Assembly: GCA_028712895.1 (NCBI GenBank)
Contig: JAQTPL010000015.1
Location: forward strand, 1-39,309
Direction of reading: 5' to 3'
DNA length: 39,309 nt
Source: a bacterium
GTDB taxonomy: Bacteria > CAYTYR01 > UBA6262
Shown here: piece after piece, positions 4,048 to 36,924 of the stretch
How positions within the stretch are numbered: the stretch's first letter is position 1
Layout of the letters: each line of letters begins with the position of its first letter
Translations under genes and position numbers: made by a program
Notes under the pieces: generated by a model
The model's input: the letters and a program-made list of their open reading frames with translations, nothing else
What the model was told of the DNA's origin: nothing
The model's database searches: none

Positions 4048-4150
4048 AAGTTGATAGTTCATTGTTGATAGTTGATAGAAAAAGCTTATAGTATTTTCTA
4101 CCAACTACGAGCTCCGATGCTAAATCGGAGCGGACTATCAACGATCAACT
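4048..4150. repeat. Heptad-arm inverted repeat (word TAGTTGA)
   Basis: The left arm 4048-4078 is AAG plus four 7-nt units (TTGATAG, TTCATTG, TTGATAG, TTGATAG), 31 nt in all. The right side at 4135-4149 is complementary to 4064-4078 at 14 of 15 positions, then decays into the end of the next gene. The loop contains a second perfect 8-bp hairpin (4111-4118 with 4124-4131). It fills the gap between the flavin reductase and SAM adenosyltransferase genes. Confidence 0.75.
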
Positions 4151-4153
4151 GTT

Positions 4154-4942
4154 TTAGCCGACTGTTATTTCTATTTCCGTGCCTTCCTTGGCTTTCATAA
4201 CCTGGCTGGCATTCCCCTGGTTTATAGCTATTTCCAAACAGTCATTAGAGCCAACAACAGCCAGGATTTGCCCCGGTTCACTATCAGTATAATTGGCGCT
4301 TAATTTCTCGATCTTATGATCTTTGATCTTAATGACCATTTTACGGAGCGACAATTTTTGTACCATCCCACCGCTGATATTAGTCACCAGGTTGCCAAAA
4401 TGGTCAATGTATATGACCTTGCCTGATACCCCGTGACGGTGGATACGCGGGCTTAAGATCGTGAATTTTTTGTATTCTTTAGTCAGTTCGCCAAACCGGC
4501 TGATCGGCACGCCTTTGGATAATTGCGCTGCCACCGGCGCAAAAATATCCCGGCCATGAAAAGTATTGCTGACATCCTGCAAAAAATATTTTTTATTGGT
4601 CAGCTCCACTATTTTTTTAATCTTTTCATTTTCCAGGGCGATACTGAGGGCCCCGTTGTCCGGGCCGATAAAGAAATATTTCTCTGTTTCTACCAGGATA
4701 GACCGGCGGGTACTACCTACGCCTGGATCGATCACGACCAGGAAAATAGTCCCTTTAGGGAAAAAATGATAGCTGGTGCGCAGGACAATGGATGCCTCGA
4801 GAGTGTTATGCGGGCTGATCGTATGAGTCAGGTCCACTAATACAGCATGGGGATTGATCGACAGGATAACCCCTTTCATGGTCCCGACAAACCCATCTTT
4901 ATAACCGAAATCAGTCATTAAGGCAATACTTCTTTTTTTCAT
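4154..4942 (-). CDS. SAM hydroxide adenosyltransferase (DUF62 family)
   Basis: A protein of about 262 residues of the SAM-dependent chlorinase/fluorinase (DUF62) family. Most members hydrolyse S-adenosylmethionine to adenosine and methionine rather than halogenate it. Family features are the N-terminal TDFGYKDGFVGTMKG, the VDLTHTISPH segment, FLVVIDPGVGS, and the GPDNG and GRDIFAPVAA motifs, followed by a C-terminal beta domain. A GTG at 4948 overlaps the previous stop, but the AAGGAGG box is only two bases from it and nine from the ATG at 4942, which I prefer. It is tightly coupled to the upstream GAF-GGDEF gene. Confidence 0.82.
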   Translation of the reverse strand: MKKRSIALMTDFGYKDGFVGTMKGVILSINPHAVLVDLTHTISPHNTLEASIVLRTSYHFFPKGTIFLVVIDPGVGSTRRSILVETEKYFFIGPDNGALSIALENEKIKKIVELTNKKYFLQDVSNTFHGRDIFAPVAAQLSKGVPISRFGELTKEYKKFTILSPRIHRHGVSGKVIYIDHFGNLVTNISGGMVQKLSLRKMVIKIKDHKIEKLSANYTDSEPGQILAVVGSNDCLEIAINQGNASQVMKAKEGTEIEITVG

Positions 4943-4944
4943 AT

Positions 4945-6102
4945 TCACATTCCTCCTTGGGCCACGGCTACGCGGTCGCGGCCATCTCGTTTAGCTTGAT
5001 AAAGGGCAGTATCTACATTTTTTAAGAGCTGCTCATAATTTGAACCATGCTGGGGGAAAACCGCTACTCCCAGGGATAAGGTAACGCCTTCAGTCTTGGG
5101 AAATTGCTCCCCCAGTTTCAGGTTTTTTACATCCTGGCATATATGTTCGGCACGCTGCACTGTTTCTTCCAGTGATGTTTCCGGGAAAACAATAATAAAC
5201 TCTTCTCCGCCATAACGGGAAGCAATGTCTTCCCCGCGTACCAGCGTCCTTAAAAATACACCCAGCTCGCGTAATAAATAATCACCGGCAGCATGCCCGA
5301 AACTATCATTGAAATGCTTGAAATGGTCAATATCCATCATGATGATCCCCAGGGGTACTCCTTTGCGCGCGGACCGTCTTAGTTCCCGTTCCAAAGACTC
5401 TTCCATATACCGGCGGTTAAAAAGACCGGTCAGGGGATCGCGGATAGCCTGGCTGCGCAGAGATTCACGCAATTTTAAATTGGCTAAAGCCAGGCCAATA
5501 TTCTCGGATACGGTTAAAGCCAGCTGCCATTTCGACTCAGCAGTGCGAATAGGCTGGTCCAGTATTTCACTGTCCCCCCAGGGATTACTGCGAATATGCA
5601 AAATCCCCAAGGTTTCTCCCTGGGCGATCATCGGGACACAGATATAACTCATGGCGGCGGGCGGCCCTACATGCTTGCAAATTATCCCGGTAGTGGCATC
5701 ACCAACACTGAACAATTGCCCGCGGCGCAACGCCCAGCAATCTCCCGGAGCGAAAACCCGTTCGCCGGTATTCCCCTCACCCCAGGCCACTACCGTGTCC
5801 ACGAGGTTTTTATCCTGATCCAGGACGCATAACGCTCCTGATTCCTGGTCGAACAATTGCTGTACGGTATGATCAACGACGGTATAGGCTTCATTCAGGG
5901 TCAGGCAGGTCTGCAATAATTCACTCATCTCACTCAATAAGGCAATTTCCCGGGCATGAAGCTCTAACTCATTCTTGGCATTCTGCAGGACAGTCTGGGC
6001 CTTTTTATGCTCATTCTCCAGGATCCTTAATTCCAATACCTGGGTACGGGCTTCGATGAGTTCCTGGATCAACTCTTCTTTTGATTTATCTTCATCTCTC
6101 AT
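4945..6102 (-). CDS. GAF-GGDEF diguanylate cyclase
   Basis: A cytoplasmic diguanylate cyclase of 385 residues that should make c-di-GMP. Residues 1-55 are charged and helical, probably coiled coil. About 55-205 is a GAF-like sensor. The GGDEF domain starts at DPLTGLFNRRYMEE (about 222) and carries the active-site motif GGEEF at 298-302. The product-inhibition I-site is present (R289-x-x-D292), so feedback control is expected. There is no membrane segment. Its start overlaps the exonuclease stop by four bases (ATGA) and its stop abuts the SAM adenosyltransferase gene, so the four genes are translationally coupled. Confidence 0.85.
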   Translation of the reverse strand: MRDEDKSKEELIQELIEARTQVLELRILENEHKKAQTVLQNAKNELELHAREIALLSEMSELLQTCLTLNEAYTVVDHTVQQLFDQESGALCVLDQDKNLVDTVVAWGEGNTGERVFAPGDCWALRRGQLFSVGDATTGIICKHVGPPAAMSYICVPMIAQGETLGILHIRSNPWGDSEILDQPIRTAESKWQLALTVSENIGLALANLKLRESLRSQAIRDPLTGLFNRRYMEESLERELRRSARKGVPLGIIMMDIDHFKHFNDSFGHAAGDYLLRELGVFLRTLVRGEDIASRYGGEEFIIVFPETSLEETVQRAEHICQDVKNLKLGEQFPKTEGVTLSLGVAVFPQHGSNYEQLLKNVDTALYQAKRDGRDRVAVAQGGM

Positions 6103-6956
6103 GCTAGTTCCTGTACCGGAGCTACCGGCAGGATTTTCATTTCCATAATCTGGTCCAGCCTGATCACCAGTTCCATTTCCCGGAACTGGCAGGTAGCGAC
6201 CAGGTAAATATCCTGCCCTTCAATTTTAACCTGCAGCGGTTCAACAATACGCTGGATCTCCTCGTCATATTCATTTTTATACCTGACAAATACCGGCGTT
6301 TTATTTTTTAAAGCCTCACTAAGAGCAGTCGGCAATACTGGTTTATACAGTGACGGGACCGTGATCTCCCCGCCTTGCAACTCAATAAGCTGGCCTATCT
6401 CACTGATATTTTTACCCTGGAAATCCTGCATAAACCTGGTGAATATATCCTTGGTCAAGAGGGCATCGTCAAGAGCGCGGTGCTGGGCCTGGATCGGCAA
6501 GGTTAAGGCCTTGGCTATATTGCCCAGGCTATTGGACGGGAAATTATAGCAGCGCCTGGCCAAAGCCAGGGTATCAAGCACGGTATTATCTACTTCCGGC
6601 AGGTCGATATTGCGTAAATGAGAATTCAGGAAGCTCAAATCAAAGCTGACATTATGACCGACGATAATGGTCTCCCTGATAAAACGCAATATATCCCCGG
6701 CTACTTCGTGAAAATAAGGCGCCTGTGCTACCATGCTGTCAGTAATACAGTTAATAGCGCTGGCTGCCGGCGAGATGGGGCGGCCGGGGTTGATCAAGGA
6801 ATGAAAGGTAGCCACAACTTTGCCCCCCTGCCACTGCACCAGGGCTAATTCGCAGATACGGTGCCCGCAGGCCGGGCTCATCCCTGTAGTTTCCACATCA
6901 AAAAACACAAAAGTGGACTCACTTATTTTTTTAGTCACGTCTTTCATCTTTAACAT
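6099..6956 (-). CDS. DEDDh 3'-5' exonuclease fused to WYL-like domain
   Basis: The N-terminal 175 residues are a DnaQ/epsilon-type 3'-5' exonuclease. Catalytic residues visible are D20 and E22 (FFDVETTG), D106 (HNVSFDLSFL), and H159 with D164 (HRALDD). Residues about 212-277 look like a WYL domain: VRYKNEYDEEIQRIVEP, then IYLVATCQFREMELVIRLDQI. WYL domains bind ligands, often nucleic acid or cyclic nucleotides, and are usually found in transcription factors and defence proteins. Without a polymerase nearby, a repair or signalling role is as likely as proofreading. It overlaps the upstream REC-GGDDF gene by 26 bases and the downstream GAF-GGDEF gene by four. ATG 6947 is an alternative start. 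Confidence 0.75.
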   Translation of the reverse strand: MLKMKDVTKKISESTFVFFDVETTGMSPACGHRICELALVQWQGGKVVATFHSLINPGRPISPAASAINCITDSMVAQAPYFHEVAGDILRFIRETIIVGHNVSFDLSFLNSHLRNIDLPEVDNTVLDTLALARRCYNFPSNSLGNIAKALTLPIQAQHRALDDALLTKDIFTRFMQDFQGKNISEIGQLIELQGGEITVPSLYKPVLPTALSEALKNKTPVFVRYKNEYDEEIQRIVEPLQVKIEGQDIYLVATCQFREMELVIRLDQIMEMKILPVAPVQELA

Positions 6957-7872
6957 AATTACTCATATCTTTCAGTTTGGCTTTTTCTTTCAATTCAGCG
7001 GCGATACTGGAGATCTGGCCCAGAGATACCAGGTTCCTCTTCTGGTTACTGACGACAGCGATCCGCAGGCGCATGATCGGGAAACGCATCAGCTCACCTT
7101 GCCGATTCTTAGCCAGGATATACCCTTTTTTGCTATCCACCGGATCATACATGGTGCCAATAAAAATATCAAAACGACTGATCAGCTCGATACAAAAATG
7201 CTCGGCATATCCGGCCGGCATGACCGCGATAAAATCATCTCCCCCGATATGCCCCAGAAAACAATTCTGGATATCAGCATCTTCCACTACCCGCCGCATC
7301 AGTTTGGCTAATTCATTGATCACCCGGTTGCCGGATTCAAAACCATAGCGGTCATTGAACGCCTTGAAATTTCCCAGGTCAGCATAACAAAAAGCAAACT
7401 TTTCACCGCTTTTGATACGCAGGTCAACTTCCTTGGCAATAGCAGTATTGCCGGGCAATTTGGTAATACCGTTTACATCAGTACGTAGCTGGTTAGCGCG
7501 CCGCAATACTACTTTGACCCTGACCAATAGTTCTTCCAGGTCAAAAGGCTTGACGATATAATCTTCAGCTCCTGCTTCCAGCAGCTGAACTTTTTCTTTC
7601 ACATCAGCCACGGCTGTTACCATGATGATGGGGACATGCTTGATCTTGTCATTTTCCTTAACCTTGCGGCAAACCTCCGGCCCGTCCATTTTGGGCATCA
7701 TATAATCCATAATGACCAGATCCGGGACCAATCGCTCTATTTTGGCTAAAGCCTCTTCTCCATCGACTGCCTTTTCGATTTTATAACCGTCGCTAATAAG
7801 CGCTTCACAAATGATGTTATTAATGAAGGGATCATCATCAACGACCAATACTGTCTTTTTATCGTCAGCCAT
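6931..7872 (-). CDS. Response regulator with GGDDF domain
   Basis: A two-component receiver fused to a GGDEF-type domain, 313 residues. The receiver has the acidic pair D12/D13, phospho-acceptor D56 (DLVIMDYMMP), and the IVKPF lysine near 108. The output domain has ADLGNFKAFNDRYGFESGN and a variant signature GGDDF at 210-214, with no RxxD I-site before it. Cyclase activity is possible but uncertain, and the domain may act as a sensor or binding module. No histidine kinase is adjacent. ATG 7872 follows a GAGGTT box. It is first in a four-gene overlapping string with a second GGDEF protein. Confidence 0.82.
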   Translation of the reverse strand: MADDKKTVLVVDDDPFINNIICEALISDGYKIEKAVDGEEALAKIERLVPDLVIMDYMMPKMDGPEVCRKVKENDKIKHVPIIMVTAVADVKEKVQLLEAGAEDYIVKPFDLEELLVRVKVVLRRANQLRTDVNGITKLPGNTAIAKEVDLRIKSGEKFAFCYADLGNFKAFNDRYGFESGNRVINELAKLMRRVVEDADIQNCFLGHIGGDDFIAVMPAGYAEHFCIELISRFDIFIGTMYDPVDSKKGYILAKNRQGELMRFPIMRLRIAVVSNQKRNLVSLGQISSIAAELKEKAKLKDMSNYVKDERRD

Positions 7873-7887
7873 GAGAACCTCATTTAC

Positions 7888-7960
7888 TAGCGTATAGCGG
7901 GTAGCGTTTAGCGTATAGATCTTGTTTTCCTATCCGCTCTACGCCATACGCTTAACGCTA
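7888..7960. repeat. Heptad-arm inverted repeat (word TAGCGTA)
   Basis: The left arm 7888-7918 is exactly 31 nt: TAGCGTA, TAGCGGG, TAGCGTT, TAGCGTA, TAG. The right arm 7930-7960 is also 31 nt and complementary at 23 of 31 positions. The loop is 11 nt. It occupies almost the whole spacer between the alcohol dehydrogenase stop and the response regulator start. It is the same element in size and word as 27542-27614. Confidence 0.85.
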
Positions 7961-9124
7961 TTAATAGGCTTTCTTTAGTATACTGACCACGTCAGCTTCC
8001 GTGACCACCCGTGGATTAGCTTTCAGGGAACCAGAAGGCATACTATCCTTAGCCAGTTGGGGAAAATCCTCTGGTTTGACCCCAAGCTCCCGTAAACGCC
8101 AGGGAAACCCGACTTCTGTCAGAAGTTGTTTTGTTTTATCGATGCAGATCTTAGCCGCGCGCTCTTTATCCAATCCCCGCAATAAACCGCCCATTACTCC
8201 GGCAATAGTTGAATATTTAGAGGTGGCAAAATTAAGATTAAATTCGATCACATAAGGCAATAAGATACCGCAAACTAAACCATGCGGCAGATTATATTTC
8301 AGTCCTATAGGATGGGCCAGGCCATGCACCGCACCCATACGCGCGTTAGACAAGGCAATACCGCTTAGTAAAGCGGCATACAACATATTCTGTCGGGCTT
8401 GTATATTAGCACCATTCTTGTACGCTACCCGGAGATTCATGCTAACCATGCGGATCGACTGCAAAGCAATAGCATCGGTTAATATATTAGCCCCGGTGGA
8501 AACATACGATTCAATAGATTGGCAAAGAGCATCAATCCCGGCATAAGCCGTCAATTTAGGCGGTAAGCTCACGGTTAATTCTGCATCAATGATGGCTATT
8601 TTCGGATAGAGAAAAGAATGGCGCAAGCTTTCTTTAACTTGCCGTTTTCGGTCAATCAATACAGAGTTAGGCGTAACTTCAGCACCGGTGCCAGCCGTAG
8701 TAGGAATAGCAACACAAGGGATGCCGGGGGATAATAGTTCCCGGCCAGTCATGAACTCTTCTACCGGGTTCCCTTTATTAGCCAAAGCTGCGGCGGCCTT
8801 GGCGACATCGAGCACACTTCCGCCGCCAATACCAACTACGAGATCACAACCTTTTTCCCTGGCTACAGCGATGGCTTGATTGACATTGTCACAGGTTGGT
8901 TCAGGATCCACCTGGTCAAAAACCGTGAGCCGGATCTCAGCAGTGGTTGAAACATTTTTCACGATCCGGTCCAGCAAACCGCTTTGCCGGACGCTATTTT
9001 TCCCGGTAATCAGCAGTACATTATCCCCAAATCCGCGGATATGGGCGGCAAGATCATTAACGCTGCCCAAGCCGGCGATTATCTTTGTCGGCAGATTGAA
9101 TTCAGTAATCTTGTTATCAACCAT
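7961..9124 (-). CDS. Iron-containing alcohol dehydrogenase
   Basis: A 387-residue group III (iron-dependent) alcohol dehydrogenase, which interconverts alcohols and aldehydes with NAD(P). The N-terminal dinucleotide half has GLGSVNDL and GIGGGSVLDVAKAAA. IPTTAGTGAEVTPNSV follows. The metal-binding half contains DALCQSIESYVS, then GAVHGLAHPIG and LPHGLVCGILLPYV, with the expected histidines. Length is normal for the family. The substrate cannot be deduced and no pathway genes adjoin it. It stands between two repeat-bearing spacers and may be a separate transcription unit. Confidence 0.85.
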   Translation of the reverse strand: MVDNKITEFNLPTKIIAGLGSVNDLAAHIRGFGDNVLLITGKNSVRQSGLLDRIVKNVSTTAEIRLTVFDQVDPEPTCDNVNQAIAVAREKGCDLVVGIGGGSVLDVAKAAAALANKGNPVEEFMTGRELLSPGIPCVAIPTTAGTGAEVTPNSVLIDRKRQVKESLRHSFLYPKIAIIDAELTVSLPPKLTAYAGIDALCQSIESYVSTGANILTDAIALQSIRMVSMNLRVAYKNGANIQARQNMLYAALLSGIALSNARMGAVHGLAHPIGLKYNLPHGLVCGILLPYVIEFNLNFATSKYSTIAGVMGGLLRGLDKERAAKICIDKTKQLLTEVGFPWRLRELGVKPEDFPQLAKDSMPSGSLKANPRVVTEADVVSILKKAY

Positions 9125-9133
9125 GTAAAGCCT

Positions 9134-9166
9134 CTAATTACTCGAATGACAGCGAATGGCTCGAAT
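9134..9166. repeat. 33-nt dispersed repeat with three CGAAT cores, copy 1
   Basis: This 33-nt stretch matches 15258-15290 at 30 of 33 positions. Both carry three CGAAT cores spaced 10 and then 9 nt. Both lie in short intergenic gaps, here between the HIT gene and the alcohol dehydrogenase gene. It does not follow the 7-nt period of the other spacer repeats. Confidence 0.7.
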
Positions 9167-9180
9167 AAAACAATCAATAT

Positions 9181-9675
9181 TCATTTGCTAATTTCTTTCT
9201 TCAATATCTTATAGACTTCAGCGAGTGTTTGGGGCATGACCCTGGTGGCGCCGATCACCGGCATAAAATTATGATCGCCGTGCCAGCGTGGTACAATATG
9301 GATATGTACATGGCCAAGAACACCGGCTCCGCCAACTTTACCGATGTTGATACCCACATTAAAGCCTTCCGGTCGCATTATTTTCTTTAAGACTTTGATC
9401 ATTTTCTGGGTCAATTGCATCATCTCAGTAAGAGTGGCAGTATCCAGTTTTTCCAGGTCCTTGATATGTTTGAGCGGAGCGACCATGAGATGGCCGTTGG
9501 TATAGGGATAAAGATTTAACATGACAAACGCTCTCTGGCCCCGGTAAAGCACCAGATTTTTCAGACTGTCTTTCTTTTTTAGTTTTTTACAAAAAACGCA
9601 ACCAGGTTCATTGACTTTCTTAATATAAGCCATCCTCCAGGGCGCCCAAAGTATGTCAAACTTTTTCGTAGTCAT
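9181..9675 (-). CDS. HIT family nucleotide hydrolase or phosphorylase
   Basis: A 164-residue histidine-triad protein. The signature HVHIHIVPRW is at residues 122-131, with H122, H124 and H126 expected at the active site. A CVFC pair at 26-29 probably binds zinc, as in the Ap4A phosphorylase/Fhit-like branch that begins with LWAPWRMAYI. The likely substrates are dinucleoside polyphosphates or nucleoside phosphoramidates, and the sequence does not decide between them. The start ATG has AAGGA upstream. Its neighbours do not hint at a pathway. Confidence 0.85.
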   Translation of the reverse strand: MTTKKFDILWAPWRMAYIKKVNEPGCVFCKKLKKKDSLKNLVLYRGQRAFVMLNLYPYTNGHLMVAPLKHIKDLEKLDTATLTEMMQLTQKMIKVLKKIMRPEGFNVGINIGKVGGAGVLGHVHIHIVPRWHGDHNFMPVIGATRVMPQTLAEVYKILKKEISK

Positions 9676-9684
9676 AATAAATCC

Positions 9685-9778
9685 TTAAATACAGTTATCA
9701 GTAATAAAGTGGTAGAGTTTAATGAATTTTGTACCGCGGGTTTAACCCTTTATCACCTTATCACTATTTTTTACTGTC
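9685..9778. repeat. Degraded heptad-arm inverted repeat (GTGATAA/AGTGGTA words)
   Basis: The left arm 9685-9715 can be parsed as four 7-nt units plus TAG (including CAGTTAT, CAGTAAT, AAAGTGG). The right arm, about 9748-9778, holds CTTTATCA and CCTTATCA repeats. Pairing is weaker than in the other elements. The right arm runs into the 3' end of the following gene and supplies its last codons (DKVIKG). Confidence 0.5.
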
Positions 9779-10650
9779 TTAAACGCATGTTTCAACGTTT
9801 GCCACACCAGCTTTGGATCCGCTGAGTTCAACTGGTCCACTAAACTGCCACTATCATAACTCCAGGCGGCAATATTGGCAATGCCAGCCCTGGCAGCAAT
9901 CTCTACAGCCTGGCTGATTTCCGGTTCTTTACCCGCGGGTATTTTAAACGCCTGGATCCAAAGCTGTGCTTCTTTATGATGTTCCTGACAAAGATTATAA
10001 ACTTTTTTCGCAAAATCTTCAACAAATTCAAGTTTTTTATTCCATAGCAGCCAATATGGATCCGTCCCAAAAATATCAATAGTCTCAAGCCTTAGTATTT
10101 TTCTCCATATTGCCGCGGACCTGGCATCATCTTGCGGGTAAACACAAATCGCGTTTTTAATTCCCTGCTGTTTAACCAGCCCGGTCATTTCCCCTAAAAA
10201 ATCAATAATCTTACCGACTTCTTCCTGGTTATACTTGAATCCTGTCTGGTGCGGCTCATCCCAGAAAATCACATCCGGTTTCATCGCCAGCGCTATCGCC
10301 AGCCACTCTTTCATGAATTTTTTAAATTTCTTATGGCTAATATCGGCCAGCGGTAAAGGCCGCCCTTTTTTCTTCAGGCAGGCATCAGGATTTTCAGCGA
10401 CAAAAAGGGAAAAAGTTTCGCCGCCAAAAACACCTCCTACTCCCCACGGGTCAAGATATGTGGCCAGACCGCACTCGCGGCTCAGCCTCATTATCTCCTG
10501 CATATTCTGGCGATGATAATAGAGATCTGTTTCACTGAATGTATGCACTACAAAATCACAGCACGTAGCGATCTCTGCCAGATCCTGTTTGGCCTGGGAT
10601 ACGTCCCTGGTTAGAATATAACTGATCCCGGTTTTCAAGGGAGGCTCCAT
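9742..10650 (-). CDS. Uncharacterised TIM-barrel-like protein
   Basis: A 302-residue soluble protein I cannot assign to a named family. Alternating strand-helix pattern and motifs such as YLDPWGVGGVFGGE, MKPDVIFWDEPHQTG, IDIFGTDPYWLLW and IAAWSYDSGS suggest a (beta/alpha)8 barrel of the glycoside-hydrolase type. E (WDEPH) and D (GTDPYW) are candidate catalytic acids. No signal peptide is seen. It overlaps the EcfT gene by 16 bases, so the two are probably co-translated. Its last eight codons lie in a degraded spacer repeat, so the C-terminus may have been extended by that repeat. Confidence 0.6.
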   Translation of the reverse strand: MEPPLKTGISYILTRDVSQAKQDLAEIATCCDFVVHTFSETDLYYHRQNMQEIMRLSRECGLATYLDPWGVGGVFGGETFSLFVAENPDACLKKKGRPLPLADISHKKFKKFMKEWLAIALAMKPDVIFWDEPHQTGFKYNQEEVGKIIDFLGEMTGLVKQQGIKNAICVYPQDDARSAAIWRKILRLETIDIFGTDPYWLLWNKKLEFVEDFAKKVYNLCQEHHKEAQLWIQAFKIPAGKEPEISQAVEIAARAGIANIAAWSYDSGSLVDQLNSADPKLVWQTLKHAFKTVKNSDKVIKG

Positions 10651-12387: not shown

Positions 12388-12412
12388 CTCTTTTCCTATT
12401 CCTCCAGAATCA

Positions 12413-12496
12413 GTTATGAGTTTTGAATTTTGAGTTTTGAATTAAGGTAAAAAGCTTTTCACCTAAACTCAAAACTTATAACTTATAATTTAAAAC
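12413..12496. repeat. Heptad-arm inverted repeat (word GTTTTGA)
   Basis: The left arm 12413-12443 is GTTATGA, GTTTTGA, ATTTTGA, GTTTTGA, ATT (31 nt). The right arm 12466-12496 is 31 nt, complementary at 22 of 31 positions. The 22-nt loop carries its own near-perfect inverted repeat (GGTAAAAAG with CTTTTCACC). It lies between leuB and asd. Confidence 0.8.
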
Positions 12497-12501
12497 TGTT
12501 T

Positions 12502-13584
12502 TTAAATCAAGCTGGCGATCAGGTCACCCATTTCCGTGGTGCCCAGGCCCATTTTCCCGGCAGCCAGACTCTTGATCTTGCCGCTCTCCAGAGCTTTGAA
12601 CACTGCTTGCTCTATGGCTTGTCCGGCTTTAGTTTCTCCTAATGTTTCCAGCATCATGCCTCCGGCGCAGATCGCCGCCAGCGGGTTAATGACGTTCTTG
12701 CCGGTATATTTGGGAGCTGAGCCGCCGATCGGCTCAAACATGCTGACCCCTTCAGGATTAATATTGCCGCCGGCAGCAATACCCATACCGCCCTGGATCA
12801 TCGCACCCAGGTCAGTGATGATATCGCCGAACAGATTCTCGGTCACGATCACGTCAAACCACTCTGGATTTTTCACAAACCACATTGTAGTCGCATCAAC
12901 GTGCGCATAGTCCCGCTTGAGGTTCTTGTATTGCTTCTCACCCATTTCTTCAAAAGCGCGGTACCAAAGGTCACCGCAATAAGTCAGCACATTCCTCTTA
13001 TGTACAAGGTGGATCGGTTTTTCGGCGTATTTTGGATTCTGTTGGTTCCTCTTAGCTTTAAGTTCATAAGCATATTTGATGCAGCGATCCACGGTGCGCC
13101 GGTCATAGATCATCACCTGCGAGGCAATCTCATCCGGTGTGCCCACCCGGGTAGCTCCGCCATGTCCTGTATAGATGCCGCCCGTGTTCTCCCGCACTAC
13201 CACAAAATCGATCTCTGCCGGCCCCTTATCCTTTACCGGTGTGGCAACATTAGGATACAATTTAACCGGACGCAGGTTGATATATTGGTCCAGTTCAAAA
13301 CGGATGCGCAGCAGGATACCCAGCTCTAAAATGCCTGGTTTGACATCCGGGTGCCCAATGGCGCCCAGGTAGATGGCATCCAGTTTTTTTAACTCCGGGA
13401 TAACTGAATCTGGCACAGTTTCGCCGGTCTTCTTATATCTTTCTCCGCCCAGGTCATAATTGACCAAGTCGTATTTTAAGCCATATTTTTTGCCGACCGC
13501 ATCCAATACCTTTAAGCCTTCCTTTAGTACTTCCGGGCCGGTCCCATCTCCGCCCATTACCCCGATCTTATACGTTTTACTCAC
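12502..13584 (-). CDS. leuB: 3-Isopropylmalate dehydrogenase
   Basis: An NAD-dependent beta-decarboxylating dehydrogenase of 360 residues, third enzyme of leucine synthesis and probably also acting on 3-methylmalate in the citramalate route. Visible motifs are [38 protein letters not shown] (substrate arginines), [13 protein letters not shown], and [19 protein letters not shown] with the metal-binding aspartates. The start is GTG, with AAGGAGG nine bases upstream. The RFELDQY loop and leu-gene context favour LeuB over isocitrate or tartrate dehydrogenase. It lies apart from leuD by three membrane-protein genes and a hairpin. Confidence 0.92.
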
Positions 13585-26000: not shown

Positions 26001-26495
26001 TCAGAAACTTATATACGTTACTGGTATATAGATATTGTTCGTGCCGATGCGCGCACCGATCAAGGCTAGGGGTATAATGCTCCAGAATTGCCAAAAACCT
26101 TTTTTATAGCCAAACTTTTTAACGATCCAGCGCCACCAAAGGTATCCAGCCATTCCACCAGCTACACTGTAGGCTGTCACCCTGCCAGCACTGATCTCAT
26201 CAGGGAAATGCAACCGATCGACCTGCGACTTAGCCCCGATGTAGCAGCCAACCGCATAGCCGATCGGGAATCCCACCAGCATACCTGCCTGGTCGGTTTG
26301 TTCTTGGTCCAGATCCAGAAAATAACTAGCCCCATAGCCAGCTACGGCGCCCACTACTCCGCCGCTCAAGCCGCCAATCGTAGCTGAGAAGGCTACACGG
26401 TGCTTATCCCATTGCTCCGCGGCACAGCAGATACTTGGAAGCAAAAAGATTATTATCAAGCAATTAATTATTCTTATAATTTTATTGTTTTTCAC
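26001..26495 (-). CDS. Exported or membrane protein with glycine-zipper segments
   Basis: A 164-residue protein of unknown function. A signal peptide (MKNNKIIRIINCLIIIFLLPSICCA) is followed by Gly-rich hydrophobic segments (IGGLSGGVVGAVAGYGASY, GMLVGFPIGYAVGCYIG, AGGMAGYLWW), which could line or span a membrane. The start is GTG at 26495 and lies at the edge of a 31-nt heptad arm, so the arm supplies its 5' untranslated region. No strong ribosome site is visible. It interrupts the ilvC-psd order. Confidence 0.6.
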   Translation of the reverse strand: MKNNKIIRIINCLIIIFLLPSICCAAEQWDKHRVAFSATIGGLSGGVVGAVAGYGASYFLDLDQEQTDQAGMLVGFPIGYAVGCYIGAKSQVDRLHFPDEISAGRVTAYSVAGGMAGYLWWRWIVKKFGYKKGFWQFWSIIPLALIGARIGTNNIYIPVTYISF

Positions 26496-26525
26496 TATAC
26501 GCTATCCGCTATAAGCTACACGCTA
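26495..26525. repeat. Single heptad arm (word TAGCGTA)
   Basis: A 31-nt arm, C plus TATACGC, TATCCGC, TATAAGC, TACACGC plus TA. It matches the right arms of 7888-7960 and 27542-27614 in length and phase, but no partner arm lies within the neighbouring spacer. It overlaps the ilvC stop and the GTG start of the downstream gene. Confidence 0.75.
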
Positions 26526-27521
26526 TTTTTTCTTCAGCCAGCTCATCATGCTACGGAGTTTCGCTCCGACTTTTTCGATCAGCATATCATCGGTGCGTTT
26601 ACGCAAAGCATTAAACGTCGGACGACCAGCCTGGTTCTCCAAGAGCCACTCAGTAGCAAACCTGCCGCTGCGGATCTCTTCGAGAATTTTAACCATTTCT
26701 TTGCGGGTATCTTCAGTGATTATTCTCTTGCCGCGGGTCAAGTCGCCAAATTCAGCGGTATCGCTGACTGAATATCTCATCCGGCTGATGCCGCCTTCAT
26801 AGAACAGGTCAACGATCAGTTTCAATTCATGCATACATTCAAAATAAGCGATCTCCGGCTGGTAACCAGCTGCCACCAAGGTTTCGAAACCGGCATTAAC
26901 GAGCTCAGTCACGCCGCCGCACAACACAACCTGTTCGCCGAACAAGTCAGTCTCGGTTTCTTCGGCAAAAGTAGTTTCAATGACGCCAGCCCTGGTGCCG
27001 CCAATACCTTTGGCATAGGCTAAAGCATATTTCTTCGCTTTGCCAGTCGCATCCTGGTAAATTGCGATCAGGTTCGGCACACCGCTGCCTTCGGTAAATA
27101 CGCGTCTCACTAAATGGCCGGGCCCTTTAGGCGCGACCATGAACACATCCACATTTTTTGGCGGCACGATCTGGCCAAAGTGAATATTAAATCCGTGCGA
27201 AAACACCAATGCTTTTCCAGCCTTCAGGTTTGGCTCTACTGCTTCGCGGTAAATCTTGGCCTGTGTCTGGTCCGGCGCCAACATCTGTATAATATCAGCC
27301 TTAGCTGCCAATTCTGCGGCGCTCAACGGCTTAAATCCATTTTTAACCGCCAATTCATAATTAGGCGTGCCTTTTAATTCCGATACGATCACTTCCACAC
27401 CGCTGTCTCTTAGGTTCTGTGCCTGGGCATGGCCCTGGCTGCCGTAACCGATAATTCCGACCACTTTCCCTTTTAATAATTTCAGGTCCGCGTCTTTGTC
27501 ATAGTACATTTTCACTGCCAT
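26523..27521 (-). CDS. ilvC: Ketol-acid reductoisomerase
   Basis: A class I ketol-acid reductoisomerase of 332 residues, converting acetolactate or acetohydroxybutyrate to the dihydroxyacid with NADPH and magnesium. The Rossmann motif is [22 protein letters not shown], then [13 protein letters not shown]. The knotted C-terminal domain has [31 protein letters not shown] and the SDTAEFGD loop. A strong AGGAGG box precedes ATG 27521. It is third in the ilvB-ilvN-ilvC series, and its spacers on both sides carry heptad-arm repeats. Confidence 0.95.
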
Positions 27522-27541: not shown

Positions 27542-27614
27542 TAGCGTATAGCGTATGGCGTATAGCGTATAGTTTTTGTTTTTCTATACGCTTAACGCTA
27601 CCCGCTTTCCGCTA
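27542..27614. repeat. Heptad-arm inverted repeat (word TAGCGTA)
   Basis: The left arm 27542-27572 is TAGCGTA, TAGCGTA, TGGCGTA, TAGCGTA, TAG. The right arm 27584-27614 is complementary at 24 of 31 positions. The 11-nt loop is nearly all T. Arm length, loop length and word equal those of 7888-7960, nearly 20 kb away. It lies between ilvN and ilvC. Confidence 0.85.
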
Positions 27615-27618: not shown

Positions 27619-28098
27619 TTATTTATTCCCTCTGGCCATTGCTACCACACCGGTGCGCACCATTTCCTTGATGCCAAATGGCCTAATAATTTCTACAAAA
27701 GCTTTGATCTTTTCTTCATTACCGGTCATTTCGATGATCAGCGAACTTGAACCGACATCAACGATCTTAGCCCGGAAAATATCCACGATCTGCATGATCT
27801 CCAACCGGGTATTTTTATCCGCCGCAACCTTGATCAGGGTCAAATCACGCTCCAGGTGCTCGGTTTCAAGAAAATCACTCACCCTGATGACATCGACCAG
27901 CTTATTGAGCTGTTTTTCGATCTGCTCCAGGATCCTTTCATCACCGCGCACAATAATAGTCATGCGGGAAATGCTGGGATCCTCAGTTTCTCCGACAGCT
28001 AAACTATCAATATTATAACCACGGGCACTGAACAGGTTGGCTATACGCGCCAGGACCCCGGCTTTGTTCTCAACCAAAACACTTATTGCATGTCTCAT
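27619..28098 (-). CDS. ilvN: Acetolactate synthase small subunit
   Basis: The regulatory subunit of acetohydroxyacid synthase, 159 residues. The N-terminal ACT domain (MRHAISVLVENKAGVLARIANLFSARGYNIDSLAVG) binds the feedback inhibitor, usually valine. The C-terminal half has LIKVAADKNTRLEIMQIVDIFRAKIVDVG and ITGNEEKIKAFVEIIRPFGIKEMVRTGVVAM-type motifs. It works with the IlvB subunit encoded just upstream, from which a heptad-arm repeat separates it. Confidence 0.94.
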   Translation of the reverse strand: MRHAISVLVENKAGVLARIANLFSARGYNIDSLAVGETEDPSISRMTIIVRGDERILEQIEKQLNKLVDVIRVSDFLETEHLERDLTLIKVAADKNTRLEIMQIVDIFRAKIVDVGSSSLIIEMTGNEEKIKAFVEIIRPFGIKEMVRTGVVAMARGNK

Positions 28099-28115: not shown

Positions 28116-28199
28116 TAGCTCATAGCTCTTAGTTCATAGCTCGTAGGCCAATGGTAAAATACCTTTACCTATCAGCTATGAGCTATCAGCTTCGAGCTG
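28116..28199. repeat. Heptad-arm inverted repeat (word TAGCTCA)
   Basis: The left arm 28116-28146 is TAGCTCA, TAGCTCT, TAGTTCA, TAGCTCG, TAG. The right arm 28169-28199 is also 31 nt, complementary at 23 of 31 positions. The 22-nt loop includes GGTAAA/TTTACC pairing. It lies between ilvB and ilvN. Confidence 0.85.
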
Positions 28200-28204: not shown

Positions 28205-29881
28205 TTATGCCACTCCCTGTAATATTTCATCCAGTGCTGCACCTGCCGGCACCATCGGAAACACGTTTTCTTCCGGCTCGATCCTGAAATCAAGAAACAC
28301 CGGCTTATCTATCTTGATGGCTTTCTGGAGAGCAGCTTTCACGTCACTTTTCTTTTCCACACGAATACCGACAGCCCCATAAGCTTCTGCCACTTTGACA
28401 AAATCAGGATTACCAGAAAGTACTGTGCCGGAATACCGTTTTTTATAGAAAAGTTGCTGCCACTGCCGGACCATTCCCAAATAACCATTATTCAGGATCG
28501 CCACTTTCACTGGAATTTTATTCTGGACCGCAGTTGCCAGCTCTTGAATGTTCATCTGGATACTGCCGTCACCGGCAATATCAAACACAACTTTATCCGG
28601 ACAGGCAACTTTGGCTCCGATCGCTGCCGGGAAACCATAACCCATTGTCCCCAACCCGCCACTGGAAATAAAAGTTCGCGGCGTTTTGCTGTTAATAAAT
28701 TGCGTGGACCACATCTGGTTCTGGCCCACTTCCGTGGTGATAATGCCATTGCCCTTAGTGATCTCACTGATCTGTTCAATGACATACTGGGCCCGCAATT
28801 TATTGTCCTTTTTATAGGTCAGCGGAAAATCTTTTTTCCAGATCTCTATTTGCTTGTGCCAATCAGTCATCTTGGTTTTCTTCGCCACATACTTGACCAT
28901 TTCTTCAACAATGACCCGGGCATCTCCCACGATCGGCACATCCACCTTGATGTTCTTGGAAATACTGGTCGGATCAATGTCAATATGAATAACTTTGGCT
29001 CCGGGAGCAAATTTATCCAGTCTCCCGGTCACGCGGTCATCAAACCGCGCTCCCACGGCAATGATCAGATCTGATTTCTGCGTAGCATGATTTGCGCTAT
29101 ATGTCCCATGCATTCCCACCATACCTAAAGATAGGTCATGGACACTCGGGAAAGCGCCAATACCCATGAGGGTCCAGATAACCGGCAGTTGCGCTTTCTC
29201 CGCCAGGGCCAGGATCTCCTTATGCGCACCGGAAGTAATAACCCCGCCGCCGATATAGAGCACTGGTTTTTGGGCATGATTAATCATTTCCGCGGCTTTT
29301 TTGATCTGGCCGGGATGCCCCTGGTAATTGGGACGGTAACTCCTGATATCCACTTGCGCAGGATAAGAAAAATCACACTCTGCTTTCTGCACGTCAACCG
29401 GCAAATCGATCAACACTGGTCCGGGACGCCCGGTCTGGGCAATATAAAAAGCCTCTTTAACGATCCGCGCCAAGTCACGCACATCTTTCACTAAATAATT
29501 ATGCTTGGTCACTGGTCTGGTAATGCCGGTAATATCCGCTTCCTGGAATGCGTCATTGCCGATCAGGTTAGTAGCCACCTGGGCAGTGATCGCGATCATG
29601 GGAATCGAATCCATATTAGCATTGGCCAATCCTGTCACCAGATTGGTGGCGCCAGGGCCGCTGGTGGCAAAACAAACGCCCACCTTGCCTGATGCCCGGG
29701 AAAAACCTTCAGCCATATGGGCTGCTCCCTGTTCATGCCTGGTTAAGATAAACCTTATCGGAGAATCGTACAGCACATCGAACGTAGGCAAGAACACCCC
29801 ACCCGGAATGCCGAACACAACCTCCACTTTTTCCTTTAATAGTGATTCAATTAATATTTGTGCACCTGTCTTCTTCATCAA
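28205..29881 (-). CDS. ilvB: Acetolactate synthase large subunit
   Basis: The thiamine-diphosphate catalytic subunit of acetohydroxyacid synthase, 558 residues. VFGIPGGVFLPTFDVL and RHEQGAAHMAEGFSRASGKVGVC hold the catalytic glutamate region. PGPVLIDLPVDVQ and the FAD-binding middle domain follow. The ThDP site is GDGSIQMNIQELATAVQNKIPVKVAILNN, then GMVRQWQQLFY. It makes acetolactate for valine/leucine and acetohydroxybutyrate for isoleucine from citramalate-derived 2-oxobutyrate. A GGAGG box lies before the double ATG. Confidence 0.95.
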   Translation of the reverse strand: MMKKTGAQILIESLLKEKVEVVFGIPGGVFLPTFDVLYDSPIRFILTRHEQGAAHMAEGFSRASGKVGVCFATSGPGATNLVTGLANANMDSIPMIAITAQVATNLIGNDAFQEADITGITRPVTKHNYLVKDVRDLARIVKEAFYIAQTGRPGPVLIDLPVDVQKAECDFSYPAQVDIRSYRPNYQGHPGQIKKAAEMINHAQKPVLYIGGGVITSGAHKEILALAEKAQLPVIWTLMGIGAFPSVHDLSLGMVGMHGTYSANHATQKSDLIIAVGARFDDRVTGRLDKFAPGAKVIHIDIDPTSISKNIKVDVPIVGDARVIVEEMVKYVAKKTKMTDWHKQIEIWKKDFPLTYKKDNKLRAQYVIEQISEITKGNGIITTEVGQNQMWSTQFINSKTPRTFISSGGLGTMGYGFPAAIGAKVACPDKVVFDIAGDGSIQMNIQELATAVQNKIPVKVAILNNGYLGMVRQWQQLFYKKRYSGTVLSGNPDFVKVAEAYGAVGIRVEKKSDVKAALQKAIKIDKPVFLDFRIEPEENVFPMVPAGAALDEILQGVA

Positions 29882-29895
29882 ACTTCCTCCAAAGT

Positions 29896-29985
29896 AAGTT
29901 CATAGCTCGAAGCTCTTAGCTCGTAGTCTATGGATATTTTTATATATTATTTTCCTATCAGCTACCAGCTATGAGCTATGAGCTG
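29896..29985. repeat. Heptad-arm inverted repeat (word TAGCTCG)
   Basis: The left arm 29896-29926 is AAGTTCA, TAGCTCG, AAGCTCT, TAGCTCG, TAG. The right arm 29955-29985 is 31 nt, complementary at 23 of 31 positions. The loop is 28 nt and AT-rich. It lies between ilvD and ilvB, and its word is close to that of 28116-28199. Confidence 0.85.
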
Positions 29986-29987
29986 CT

Positions 29988-31652: not shown

Positions 31653-31689
31653 AACAATGCCTCCATTTCAACTACGATTACACATCCTG

Positions 31690-33246: not shown

Positions 33247-33255
33247 TTTAAACCT

Positions 33256-34479
33256 CTAGTTTTTTTTCTTATCCAGGTTAAAAGCTTTATGGATAACTTT
33301 CACGGCTTTTTCCACATGCACATTTTTGATCACACAGGAGATCTTGATCTCGCTGGTGGAGATCATTTCAATATTAATGCCGGCCCGCGCCAGGGCGCTG
33401 AACATCTTGCTGGCAATGCCCACATGCGAACGCATACCAACACCAACAATGGAAATTTTGGCTACATTCCGGTCATGGATCACTTCCGTCGCCCCTAATT
33501 CCCTTTTTATCTTATCCATTACCTCCAGGGTCTTGAGCAGGTCCTTGTGGCTGACCGTAAAAGAAATATCATTCCGGCCATCAGCGGCGCTGGACTGGAT
33601 GATCATATCCACGTTAATGCCTTTAGACGCCAGCTCGGTAAACATGCTGGCAGCTACACCAGGCTTATCAGGCAGATCAATGATCGATATCTTGGCCTGG
33701 TTTTTGTCACTGGCAATGCCTCTGACGACTACATCTTCCATTTTGCTGACCTCCCTGGTAATGATCGTTCCTTTTTCGTGAGAAAAAGTGGAACGCACAT
33801 GGATATCGATATTAAACTTTTTCGCGACTTCGATCGAGCGGGCTTGCATTACTTGCGCTCCCAGGCCAGCCATTTCCAGCATTTCATCGTAGGAAATAAT
33901 ATCCAGCTTCCGGGCTTCGTGCACAATATGCGGATCAGTGGTATAAACCCCCTGTACATCGGTGAAAATCTCGCAGATATCAGCTTTTAGTACCGAAGCC
34001 AGAGCTACCGCGGTCAGGTCTGAACCGCCGCGGCCCAGGGTGGTAATATCTTCATCCTCAGTAATACCCTGGAACCCTGCCACTACTACAATATTCCCTT
34101 TTCTCAGTTCTTTCCTGATCTTCTTCGTGGGAATATGCACGATCTTGGCCATATTATGGACTTTGTCGGTCAAGATGCCGACCTGAGCGCCAGTCAAGGA
34201 TATCGCTTTATACCCTTTGTCCTTGATCGCCATAGCTAATAAGGCAATAGACATTTGTTCGCCGGTCGAAAGCAGCATATCCATTTCCCGTTCATCCGGA
34301 TCAGCAGTGATCTTTTCTGCCCAGGTGATCAGGTCATCGGTAGTATCCCCAGGCGCGGAAACTACAACTACAACCTTATTTCCCGCATCCCTGGTCTCCA
34401 TGACCCGCCGGGCAACATTTTTAATTTTATCCGCGTCTGCTACGCTGGACCCGCCAAATTTCATCACCACTAAACCCAA
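33256..34479 (-). CDS. lysC: Aspartate kinase
   Basis: It phosphorylates aspartate, the first step to lysine, threonine and methionine. It has 407 residues. The kinase domain has VMKFGGSSVADADKI, VVVVSAPGD, GRGGSDLTAVALASVLKADICEIFTDVQGVYTTDP. Two ACT domains follow from about residue 265 (ISIIDLPDKPGVAASMFTEL; ISIVGVGMRSHVGIASKMFSAL), so feedback by lysine and/or threonine is expected. The start is TTG at 34479, set by AGGAGG seven bases away. The next ATG (34464) would leave only KFGG at the N-terminus. Confidence 0.94.
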   Translation of the reverse strand: MGLVVMKFGGSSVADADKIKNVARRVMETRDAGNKVVVVVSAPGDTTDDLITWAEKITADPDEREMDMLLSTGEQMSIALLAMAIKDKGYKAISLTGAQVGILTDKVHNMAKIVHIPTKKIRKELRKGNIVVVAGFQGITEDEDITTLGRGGSDLTAVALASVLKADICEIFTDVQGVYTTDPHIVHEARKLDIISYDEMLEMAGLGAQVMQARSIEVAKKFNIDIHVRSTFSHEKGTIITREVSKMEDVVVRGIASDKNQAKISIIDLPDKPGVAASMFTELASKGINVDMIIQSSAADGRNDISFTVSHKDLLKTLEVMDKIKRELGATEVIHDRNVAKISIVGVGMRSHVGIASKMFSALARAGINIEMISTSEIKISCVIKNVHVEKAVKVIHKAFNLDKKKN

Positions 34480-34524
34480 TTTAGACCTCCTGAAACAGTG
34501 GTAGAGCCTTTACCTGCTGTACTC

Positions 34525-34555
34525 CTACCACTTTATCACTATTCATTATATTACA
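34525..34555. repeat. Degraded single heptad arm (word TTATCAC)
   Basis: C plus TACCACT, TTATCAC, TATTCAT and a decayed fourth unit. A partial partner (AGTGGTAG, 34497-34504) pairs with CTACCACT at 34525-34532. The rest of the left arm is lost near the lysC ribosome site. The arm overlaps the last codons and stop of the next gene. Its word resembles that at 9685-9778. Confidence 0.45.
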
Positions 34556-35745
34556 AACTTCTCTTTGCTCAAAAACTTTTCAATAAGTTTATATCCCTGG
34601 TTATAAATATTTTTACTTTGTTTCACGGTTAATTCATCAAATTTGCCAACACCGCTGGGCTCGATATCAGAACCAGCTACCACAAATGGCACTGCTTCCC
34701 TGGTATGGGTCCGCAGGGAAACCGGAGTCGGGTGGTCAGGCAATACTAAAATACGGTAATCACTGAATTTCTTGATCCCTTCAGCTATCCTGCCAACTAC
34801 TTCAAAATCAAAATCTTCCACTGCTTTCTTTTTCATCTCTATATCACCGTTATGTCCGGCTTCATCAGGCGCTTCTACATGGACAAAGACAAAATCATTT
34901 TTCTCCAATGACCGCAAAGCGTATTCTGCTTTGCCGCGGTAATTGGTATCAATATACCCGGTAGCTCCAGGGACATCGATCACGTTCAAGCCCGCATACC
35001 TGCCCAAGCCCTTGATCAGGTTCACGGCTGAGATCACAGACCCGGTTAAATTAAACTTTGACTGGAAGGTCGGCAGTTGCGGCCGGCGTCCTTGTCCCCA
35101 TAACCAGATCATATTGCCTGGTTTTTTCCCGGCATTGGCCCGGCGTGTATTGACCAGGTGTTTCTCCAGTAGAGGAACTGAATTAAACATCAGTTCCTGT
35201 ATAAACTCTTGCCCTTTTCCGGCAGGAAGATGAGACCCGATCTTTTGATTCGTGATATCATGTGGCGGCGTCGTCTTTAAACTGTCAAACCCACCCTTAA
35301 TAACAGTCAAGTGACGATAGCTCATACCTGGGTAAAAACGCACCTTGTCCGAGCCCATTTTTCCCTGCAGGTATTCAATCAGGACATTGGCGTCTTCAGT
35401 TGTGATGTGACCAGCGCTGTAATCTGTCATGATGCCATTTTCAATATAAACAAGATTGCAGCGGAACGCGTTTTCTTCGCCTTCCAGGAGCACGCCCATA
35501 TTGGCTGCTTCCAGGGGGCCGCGGCCGGTATAATATTTTTCCGGGTCATAGCCCATCAGAGATAAAGCCGCGACGTCACTGCCAGCCGGCAAATGATCAG
35601 GAATATTACGGGTAAGCCCCTCTTGCCCGATGGTGCAGAGCTTATCCATATTTTCGGTATTGGCTGCTTCCAGAATGGATTTAAAACCCAATTCAGGGAT
35701 AGGATAATCCGCCATACCGTCACCGATCAAAATCGCGTACTTCAT
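34546..35745 (-). CDS. apgM: ApgM-like protein, probable homoserine kinase
   Basis: An alkaline-phosphatase-superfamily protein of 399 residues, like cofactor-independent phosphoglycerate mutase of the archaeal type. The metal site starts at LIGDGMADYP. The phospho-acceptor serine is in PAGSDVAALSLMGYDP, followed by YTGRGPLEAANMGV. HVEAPDEAGHNGD and LPDHPTPVSLRTHT bind the metals. The DHPTP-SLRTHT form and placement between thrC and lysC fit TIGR02535, annotated as a proposed homoserine kinase in genomes lacking ThrB. No GHMP-type thrB is present here. Substrate is inferred. Glycolytic mutase activity remains possible. Confidence 0.85.
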   Translation of the reverse strand: MKYAILIGDGMADYPIPELGFKSILEAANTENMDKLCTIGQEGLTRNIPDHLPAGSDVAALSLMGYDPEKYYTGRGPLEAANMGVLLEGEENAFRCNLVYIENGIMTDYSAGHITTEDANVLIEYLQGKMGSDKVRFYPGMSYRHLTVIKGGFDSLKTTPPHDITNQKIGSHLPAGKGQEFIQELMFNSVPLLEKHLVNTRRANAGKKPGNMIWLWGQGRRPQLPTFQSKFNLTGSVISAVNLIKGLGRYAGLNVIDVPGATGYIDTNYRGKAEYALRSLEKNDFVFVHVEAPDEAGHNGDIEMKKKAVEDFDFEVVGRIAEGIKKFSDYRILVLPDHPTPVSLRTHTREAVPFVVAGSDIEPSGVGKFDELTVKQSKNIYNQGYKLIEKFLSKEKFVI

Positions 35746-35750
35746 CTTTT

Positions 35751-35781
35751 CACCTTTCAGCGGTCAGCGTACAGCGTACAG
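35751..35781. repeat. Heptad arm (word CAGCGTA), left partner of the arm inside thrC
   Basis: A 31-nt arm whose last three units are CAGCGGT, CAGCGTA, CAGCGTA, then CAG. The first unit is decayed. It is complementary at 23 of 31 positions to 35922-35952. It lies between apgM and thrC. Confidence 0.7.
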
Positions 35782-35796
35782 TAAAACACAAACTTA

Positions 35797-36873
35797 TTAT
35801 AAACCAATTTCTTGCTTGATTATATCGATGTTCGCTGCCACAACTTTAGGCTGGGTAGCTACTTTAATCGCGTTATCCGGATCTTTTAAACCGTGACCAG
35901 TTAAAATACATACTACCTTGACTGTCCGCTGACCGCTGTCCGCTGACCGCTGAAAATATCCTTTTTCGATATACTTTTTCAATCCAGCGACACCAGAGGC
36001 GCTGGCTGGTTCGCAGAAAACTCCTTCAGATTTAGCCAGCATCTGATAAGCCTGTACAATTTCATCATCAGTGACCATGTCGATCACGCCGCCTGATTCA
36101 TCGCGGGCAGCTTCAGCCTGTTTCCAGGAAGCGGGATTTCCTATTTTGATCGCGGTAGCCAAGGTTTTTGGATCCTTGACCGGATGACCTAACACAATCG
36201 GCGCTGATCCTGCAGCCTGGAAACCCATCATCTTAGGTGTATTTTTAGCTTTGCCTCTTTCTTTATATTCCTTATACCCTTTCCAGTAAGCAGTAATATT
36301 ACCAGCATTGCCGACCGGCATGAACTGGTAATCGGGTGCATTGCCCAATACTTCAACAATTTCAAAAGCCCCTGATTTCTGGCCCTCAATACGATATGGA
36401 TTAAGCGAATTCACCAGGGTGATGGGATACTTCTGGCTGATCTCTTTGACCAGCTCCAGAGCTTCGTCAAAATTGCCTTGGACTTGCAGTACCTGCGCAC
36501 CATGGATCATAGCCTGGGATAATTTGCCCAAGGCAATGGCTCCGTTAGGAATAAGAACAATGCATTTTATGCCGGCTCTAGCGGCATAGGCAGCAGCAGA
36601 AGCAGAAGTATTGCCAGTGGATGCGCAAATAACTGCCTTGCTTCCTTCTTCCATAGCTTTAGAGATTGCCATGGTCATGCCCCGGTCCTTAAATGAACCA
36701 GTCGGGTTCAAACCTTCATACTTCAGGTATATTTCCATTTTGCCACCCAGGATCCGGCTCAGGTTCTTAGCGGGAATAAGCGGGGTATTGCCTTCCAGTA
36801 AGGAAACTACCGGAGTTTTAGCTGATACCGGCAAATATTCCCTGTATTTTTCAATCAAACCTTGGTAACTCAT
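35797..36873 (-). CDS. thrC: Threonine synthase
   Basis: A PLP enzyme converting O-phosphohomoserine to threonine, about 358 residues. It has LLEGNTPLIPAKNL, KYEGLNPTGSFKDRGMTMAI with PLP lysine K62, CASTGNTSASAAAYAARAGI, PVGNAGNITAYWKGY and EPASASGVAGLKKYI. The start at 36873 is preferred (GAGG six bases before). ATGs at 36888 and 36903 run into a repeat arm. Near the C-terminus QRSADSGQRT replaces the short Lys/Gly/Asp stretch usual before VVCILTG. That segment is exactly encoded by a 31-nt heptad arm, so the repeat was inserted in frame. Confidence 0.93.
   Translation of the reverse strand: MSYQGLIEKYREYLPVSAKTPVVSLLEGNTPLIPAKNLSRILGGKMEIYLKYEGLNPTGSFKDRGMTMAISKAMEEGSKAVICASTGNTSASAAAYAARAGIKCIVLIPNGAIALGKLSQAMIHGAQVLQVQGNFDEALELVKEISQKYPITLVNSLNPYRIEGQKSGAFEIVEVLGNAPDYQFMPVGNAGNITAYWKGYKEYKERGKAKNTPKMMGFQAAGSAPIVLGHPVKDPKTLATAIKIGNPASWKQAEAARDESGGVIDMVTDDEIVQAYQMLAKSEGVFCEPASASGVAGLKKYIEKGYFQRSADSGQRTVKVVCILTGHGLKDPDNAIKVATQPKVVAANIDIIKQEIGL
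35922..35952. repeat. Heptad arm (word CAGCGGA) inside the thrC coding region
   Basis: A 31-nt arm, C plus TGTCCGC, TGACCGC, TGTCCGC, TGACCGC plus TG, is the most regular copy in the window. It is read through in thrC as QRSADSGQRT. Its complement lies at 35751-35781, so the two arms bracket the last 41 codons of thrC. Confidence 0.85.
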
Positions 36874-36893
36874 CTTTTCCTCTTTCATTTTTT

Positions 36894-36924
36894 CTATCAA
36901 CAATCAACTATCAACTATGAACTA
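36894..36924. repeat. Single heptad arm (word TAGTTGA)
   Basis: C plus TATCAAC, AATCAAC, TATCAAC, TATGAAC plus TA, exactly 31 nt. It occupies the hom-thrC gap and ends two bases before the hom stop codon. It shares its word with 4048-4150. No left arm lies nearby. Confidence 0.8.

Follow-up and report, generated by a model that had tools for sequence, protein, structure and literature searches.

What process could give one genome hairpins whose arms keep a common length and phase although their sequence differs between spacers? The question is raised by the window, the whole 39,309-nt stretch of a bacterial contig analysed here. The initial annotation of this stretch proposed that every site uses its own heptamer word, that copying of a single repeat would not give such a pattern, and that a templated or structure-selected origin was possible. 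We examined these proposals in the source genome (G000), a 1.93-Mb assembly in 75 contigs for which genome-wide counts were made on 818 kb of sampled stretches. It was compared with a sister species (G001), with G002 and with G003 of the same family. The closest named relative is a metagenome-assembled genome labelled Elusimicrobia (L053; 95% amino acid identity in ilvC), in which the ilv spacers match the G002 ones exactly.

Hairpins and single arms of the window

Five spacers hold a pair of arms at the positions first annotated (Table 1). Each arm is 31 nt long, 22–24 of the 31 positions are complementary, and lag-7 identity is 16–22 of 24. When the paired-arm criterion was run on the window and on 30 Markov shuffles, the window gave six clusters (the sixth at 35744/35929) and the shuffles none. 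Both the coordinates and the scores of the five pairs are borne out. In the four TAG-word pairs the mismatches lie mainly at unit positions 6, 7 and 1, as had been described, and less often at 2 and 4. An AG-containing core is marginal as a universal rule of 5′ arms, since 19 of 30 oriented families show it where 12.7 would be expected (p=0.0035, uncorrected for the 16 dinucleotides).

Table 1. Heptamer-built hairpins and arms of the window, with one adjoining gene
Feature	Span	Arms	Context or character	RNA fold z	Paralogues
TTGATAG-word element	4048..4150	5′ arm 4048-4078; short 3′ arm 4134-4150	lag 7 19/24; inverted repeats		
TAGCG-word hairpin	7888..7960	7888-7918, 7930-7960	directly 3′ of Fe-ADH stop codon	-4.5	24 (818-kb sample)
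Fe-ADH gene	7961-9124		minus strand; adjoins TAGCG hairpin 7888..7960		
AGTTTTG-word hairpin	12408..12498	12413-12443, 12466-12496	family loop AATTAAGGTAAAA..TTCACCTAAACT	-4.4	12
Lone TAGCG-word 3′ arm	26495..26525		7-periodic		
TAGCG-word hairpin	27542..27614	27542-27572, 27584-27614	between ilvC (26523-27521) and gene 27619-28098	-6.0	21
TAGCTC-word hairpin	28116..28199	28116-28146, 28169-28199	between gene 27619-28098 and TPP-enzyme (ilvB-like) gene 28205-29881	-6.3	
TAGCTC-word hairpin	29896..29985	29896-29926, 29955-29985	ilvB-like/ilvD spacer	-4.7	
CAGCG-word 5′ arm	35745..35781		spacer after PALP (threonine-synthase-like) gene		
CAGCG-word 3′ arm	35922..35952		in frame, inside PALP (threonine-synthase-like) coding sequence		
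Lone TTGATAG-word 3′ arm	36894..36924		upstream of PALP gene		

Seven single or decayed arms had also been listed. Five of them are 7-periodic (4048, 26495, 35751, 35922 and 36894; lag 7 19–21 of 24), and this periodicity is absent from the other two, 9685 and 34525 (8/24 and 9/24), which look 8-periodic by eye. Hairpin families with an 8-nt period, such as TTATCAGG and TCTACACC, seem to coexist with the heptamer ones. Sites of this type were seen at 9685-9780 and 34500-34545 of the window and at L050:18081 (orthologue in L175), L204:18761 and L202:682, and lag 8 is raised in the sister species (7.3 per 100 kb). Another small palindrome is nested between the two arms of the element at 4048; elsewhere a small palindrome, CCCCTGCTGATTTGTCC..GGACAAATCAAAGACGCGGGGACAGG, and its variants are nested in some heptamer elements (L153:5336, L049:1569, the L053 spacer corresponding to window 34479, and L194:3807). 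The PALP loop that carries the arm at 35922-35952 has different heptamer-like inserts in G001 and G002 and is short, with no insert, in G003 (L241, L242, L243).

A common heptamer architecture in several copied families

Periodicity and array length can be observed directly. In the 818 kb of the source genome, the density of lag-7 regions is 19.6 per 100 kb, compared with 0.2–2.7 for other lags; in G001 it is 19.7 per 100 kb and in G003 18.0. The 7-nt period first described in the window exceeds neighbouring periods several-fold to many-fold. Array length was taken from periodic word models, which also catch shorter arrays, together with a reversed-sequence control. It peaks at 29–33 nt for TAGCG, at 30–31 nt for TAGCTC and TAGTTGA, at 32–34 nt for AGTTGCG (in the sister species) and at 35 nt for AGTTTTG. 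Few arrays extend beyond the peak, and the background of short segments is also given by the control. Stem length as defined by pairing spreads more widely (median 31, IQR 23–37). The figure of 31 is a mode with small family-specific offsets and no fixed value: of the constant length and phase first described, lag 7 and a mode near 31 nt are upheld, but the family offsets (35 in AGTTTTG) and the broader stems depart from it. One architecture is nevertheless common to unrelated words, and the description of a constant architecture with changing sequence holds well above chance. One unusually long array, L044:4756-4834, contains about eight to nine CAGCGTA units and is likely to be a slippage expansion.

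Copying within families is likewise seen directly. In an all-against-all comparison of the 818-kb sample, 100 of 134 elements have a paralogue at E<1e-6, and the best alignments span arm, loop and arm at unrelated loci. Window positions 7873-7974, for instance, align with L153:12985 at 90% identity across 83 nt (the best alignment shown), and 12405-12503 with L151:16565 at 86% across 100 nt; the loop of this AGTTTTG hairpin is common to the family copies. For the hairpin at 27542, both G001 and G002 were searched and together contain matching copies by the dozen, many of them almost full length. Arm polarity is fixed in most well-sampled families (27:0, 10:0, 8:0, 7:0). Because paralogues align through arm, loop and arm, because matching copies lie elsewhere and because most well-sampled families keep one polarity, the words label families and not sites. 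Even in the window TAGCG serves three sites and TAGCTC two, and words recur genome-wide, so the notion of a private word at every site has to be given up. The same dispersed, multi-copy alignments, the mostly fixed polarity and the empty sites described below overturn the initial argument against copying.

Word families reach 41 arms. The word counts of G001 and G002 lean to TAGCG, since some G001 and most G002 samples came from contigs with TAGCG matches. TAGCG is common to three congeners; TAGCTC, AGTTGCG and CAAAAAT are each prominent in one. The TTGTTTAGAGTTTAGATATTAGGATTT word family (TTTAG) was found in 17 of 290 genomes, belonging to 15 genera, with 0 for its reversed control in all of them. 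This spread is consistent with broad mobility, convergent assembly of the word order being the alternative. Longer elements were also noted in which TTCTAAA-type arms accompany a TTTAGAG partner (L050:2102-2221, L043:18635, L145:10660, L146:11787), an arm order that recurs in 15 genera. Scattered heptamer arrays, some of them paired, are present in loci labelled Omnitrophica, Phycisphaerae, Tritonobacter and Dehalococcoidia.

Location and turnover of the elements

The location of the elements was observed directly, with gene context drawn from a simple ORF caller. Same-strand spacers hold 94 of the 104 classified intergenic elements of G000, where 75 would be expected by length, and spacers between divergent genes hold 2 against 12 expected. 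Counted from the stop codon, the median distances are 3 and 0.5 nt; the next start follows after a median of 16 nt. A further 23 elements fell within ORFs of the caller, and some of these ORFs are probably not genuine.

Empty sites and word differences are equally plain when orthologous spacers are compared. Among 183 same-strand spacers common to G000 and G001, heptamer arrays occupy both in 23 cases, one in 17 and neither in 143, an overall association with a Fisher value of 9e-16. The consensus word is the same or nearly the same in 7 of the 23 doubly occupied spacers and at least two letters apart in 16, although a few “different” pairs look like a single diverged family and a few “same” pairs are related but distinct words. 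The ilvB/ilvD spacer carries four words: TAGCTC in G000, AGTTGCG in G001, TCAAAAC/ATTTGTC in G002 and TTGATAG in G003. The spacer of hairpin 28116 holds a TCAAAAA-word hairpin in G002, where the spacer orthologous to that of arm 26495..26525 has a lone CAACCAT-word arm and the orthologue of hairpin 27542 is shorter by 14 nt. G003 has no element in the spacers at 27521 and 28098. At window 11348 the G000 spacer is empty, that of G001 holds AGTTGCG and that of G002 TAGCG. Empty and filled orthologues measure, for example, 14 versus 106 nt, 8 and 13 versus 123 nt, and -4 versus 127 nt. No target-site duplication is clearly readable in the compared spacers, which are too diverged. These spacers show insertion and fast turnover, and both repeated insertion at tolerant sites and rewriting in place fit them. 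The high co-occupancy by different words requires insertion hotspots or replacement.

Origin of the hairpins and relation to known repeats

The hairpins are probably several non-autonomous, hairpin-forming mobile repeat families, similar to REPINs or MITEs, made of degenerate heptamers and subject to fast lineage-specific turnover. There would be some ten such families of short dispersed repeats (about 70–120 bp), each copied from one founding hairpin whose arms were runs of about 4.5 degenerate heptamers (five in one family). Copies would insert and persist chiefly between a stop codon and the next ribosome-binding site, in intercistronic spacers of same-strand genes. Families would expand in certain lineages and dwindle elsewhere, leaving sister species with different words in the same gaps. 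Slippage and point mutation would shift the number and spelling of the units, slippage presumably keeping the 7-nt period; the long array at L044:4756 and the 14-nt arm change at an orthologous site are compatible with slippage. The elements may be mostly selfish and tolerated rather than functional. To our knowledge, ordinary MITE families share no internal heptamer architecture. That the word families here do so counts against this explanation, which needs either a common ancestry or a common recognition rule.

An enzyme acting in trans would move the elements by transposition, the first candidate being a Y1 HUH transposase. The transposase search covered Y1_Tnp genes, and such ORFs occur in all four family genomes, two in G000 and one to five in the relatives. 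None of the seven loci scanned has flanking heptamer hairpins; at one, L228, a lone CAGATGG-type array lies about 0.7 kb away. The suggested link to a TnpA_REP (RAYT) gene was not found, the inspected Y1_Tnp genes having no flanking repeats of this kind. The Y1 transposase gene at L051:859-1917 lies between copies of an inverted repeat of its own (TCTTGACATCTTGACAACGTCCCTAAG and variants), itself 8-periodic.

Rewriting in place, in which a hairpin keeps its spacer, arm length and phase and has its word replaced through slippage or homogenisation along both arms or through conversion from another element, would account for the 16 of 23 doubly occupied spacers, among 183, with different words in sister species. 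It has a precedent in the independent replacements of class II by class I words reported for the Nostoc trnL P6b stem-loop (PMC4476775). We consider it unlikely, since empty sites exist, each word has many donor copies and no convincing half-and-half intermediate was seen. The spacer counts also fit independent insertion: by our own arithmetic, about 14 different-word doubles and 17 singles are what insertion would give if it could take place in about a quarter of the same-strand spacers and had filled about 60% of those. Slightly less likely is a genome-wide counterpart of the Nostoc switching, in which a hairpin class would keep its place and its architecture (lag 7, arms of about 31 nt) and have its word rewritten in each lineage by a copying or homogenising process. 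Templated spreading along an operon is rejected, since neighbours share words not significantly more than distant elements do (p=0.30, 0.73).

Function as intercistronic RNA hairpins in mRNA stability, partial termination or the uncoupling of translation, with structure kept and sequence free, seems improbable. The five hairpins do fold better than shuffles as RNA (z -4.4 to -6.3), and elements are placed after stop codons and are rare between divergent genes. However, G-T and A-C are equally enriched among stem mismatches in G000 (112 each against about 80 expected), so that there is no strand-specific G-U excess and nothing to indicate that an RNA stem is under selection. The mismatch types are those of DNA transitions and not of strand-specific wobble. 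Orthologous spacers can moreover be empty, and the window gave no tRNA or Rfam match. With neither local spread nor strand-specific G-U excess, the templated or structure-selected origin first suggested gains no support from these tests. A last proposal, that the arrays are cassettes with stops in six frames because a stop codon repeated every 7 nt recurs in each frame of one strand, with the complementary arm having the like effect on the opposite strand, is very improbable and the rule is largely refuted. Three-frame stops on a strand do occur in 92 of 160 G000 arrays against 54 expected from column-shuffled arrays, but G001 has 56 against 44, only 8% of AGTTGCG and 9% of TAGTCGC arrays have them, and family means are 0.41 versus 0.32 and 0.39 versus 0.31, a weak and family-dependent effect. 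Stop codons in the arrays may help some words to be tolerated near gene ends.

The view that no described family follows such a rule was too strong, as heptamer-built stems and inverted heptamer pairs have been published (PMC4476775, PMC4692102, PMC4679880). The P6b stem-loop of the Nostoc trnL(UAA) group I intron is built of class I (TDNGATT) and class II (NNTGAGT) heptamers and resembles the present hairpins in its complementary arms of degenerate heptamers, two unrelated words at one site, repeated word replacement and unit-wise changes in length (PMC4476775). It is one intron locus with two words, whereas here hundreds of intergenic sites carry about ten words per genome and involve no intron or tRNA gene. 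Intergenic GGGAATC arrays of Xanthomonas form 70–75 inverted pairs per genome able to give stem-loops, and most of them have the same neighbouring genes in two species (PMC4692102). Theirs is a single G-rich word in up to 14 perfect units, read as a G-quadruplex, unlike the degenerate units, arms of about 31 nt and many words found here. TAACTGA repeats of Beggiatoaceae, cyanobacteria and Bacteroidetes are also intergenic heptamers near genes with a patchy distribution across phyla, but they are direct repeats of one word, with 2–6 copies per set in the main genome and no hairpin pairing (PMC4679880). Head-to-tail 7-nt units above chance are shared with these tandem heptamer repeats (LSSR/STRR, TAACTGA, GGGAATC); neither TAACTGA nor GGGAATC is among the leading words of our inventory.

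Like REP/REPIN and MITE sequences, the elements are multi-copy extragenic palindromes, found chiefly downstream of coding regions and in spacers of same-strand or convergent genes (PMC3733652, PMC3116915). They share high copy number with REP/REPINs and insertion polymorphism between relatives with MITEs. Their arms are heptamer runs, and the five window hairpins (5′ ends ACTAGCG, TCAGTTA, TTTAGCG, AATAGCT and TAAGTTC) have no unpaired GTAG/CGTC end tag, GTAG being confined to the interior or the inner end of some arms. Because this tag is absent and none of the seven Y1_Tnp loci scanned is flanked by the elements, they do not belong to the REP/REPIN group. Literature searches turned up no direct description of them, whether as heptamer MITEs or as repeats of this phylum.

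Heptamer simple repeats and palindromic mobile repeats have been treated in separate literatures and are linked here, the heptamer arrays being the arms of dispersed hairpins. An arm length and phase common to so many unrelated words may mean that the architecture, and not the sequence, is what is recognised, be it by an enzyme, through a polymerase footprint or under a folding rule. Spacers that hold different words in sister species offer a natural way of measuring turnover and of telling insertion from rewriting. As one word family is present in 15 genera, the class is broader than a single organism. The hairpins give the impression of very small, rapidly changing mobile DNA elements and not of structures made at their sites.
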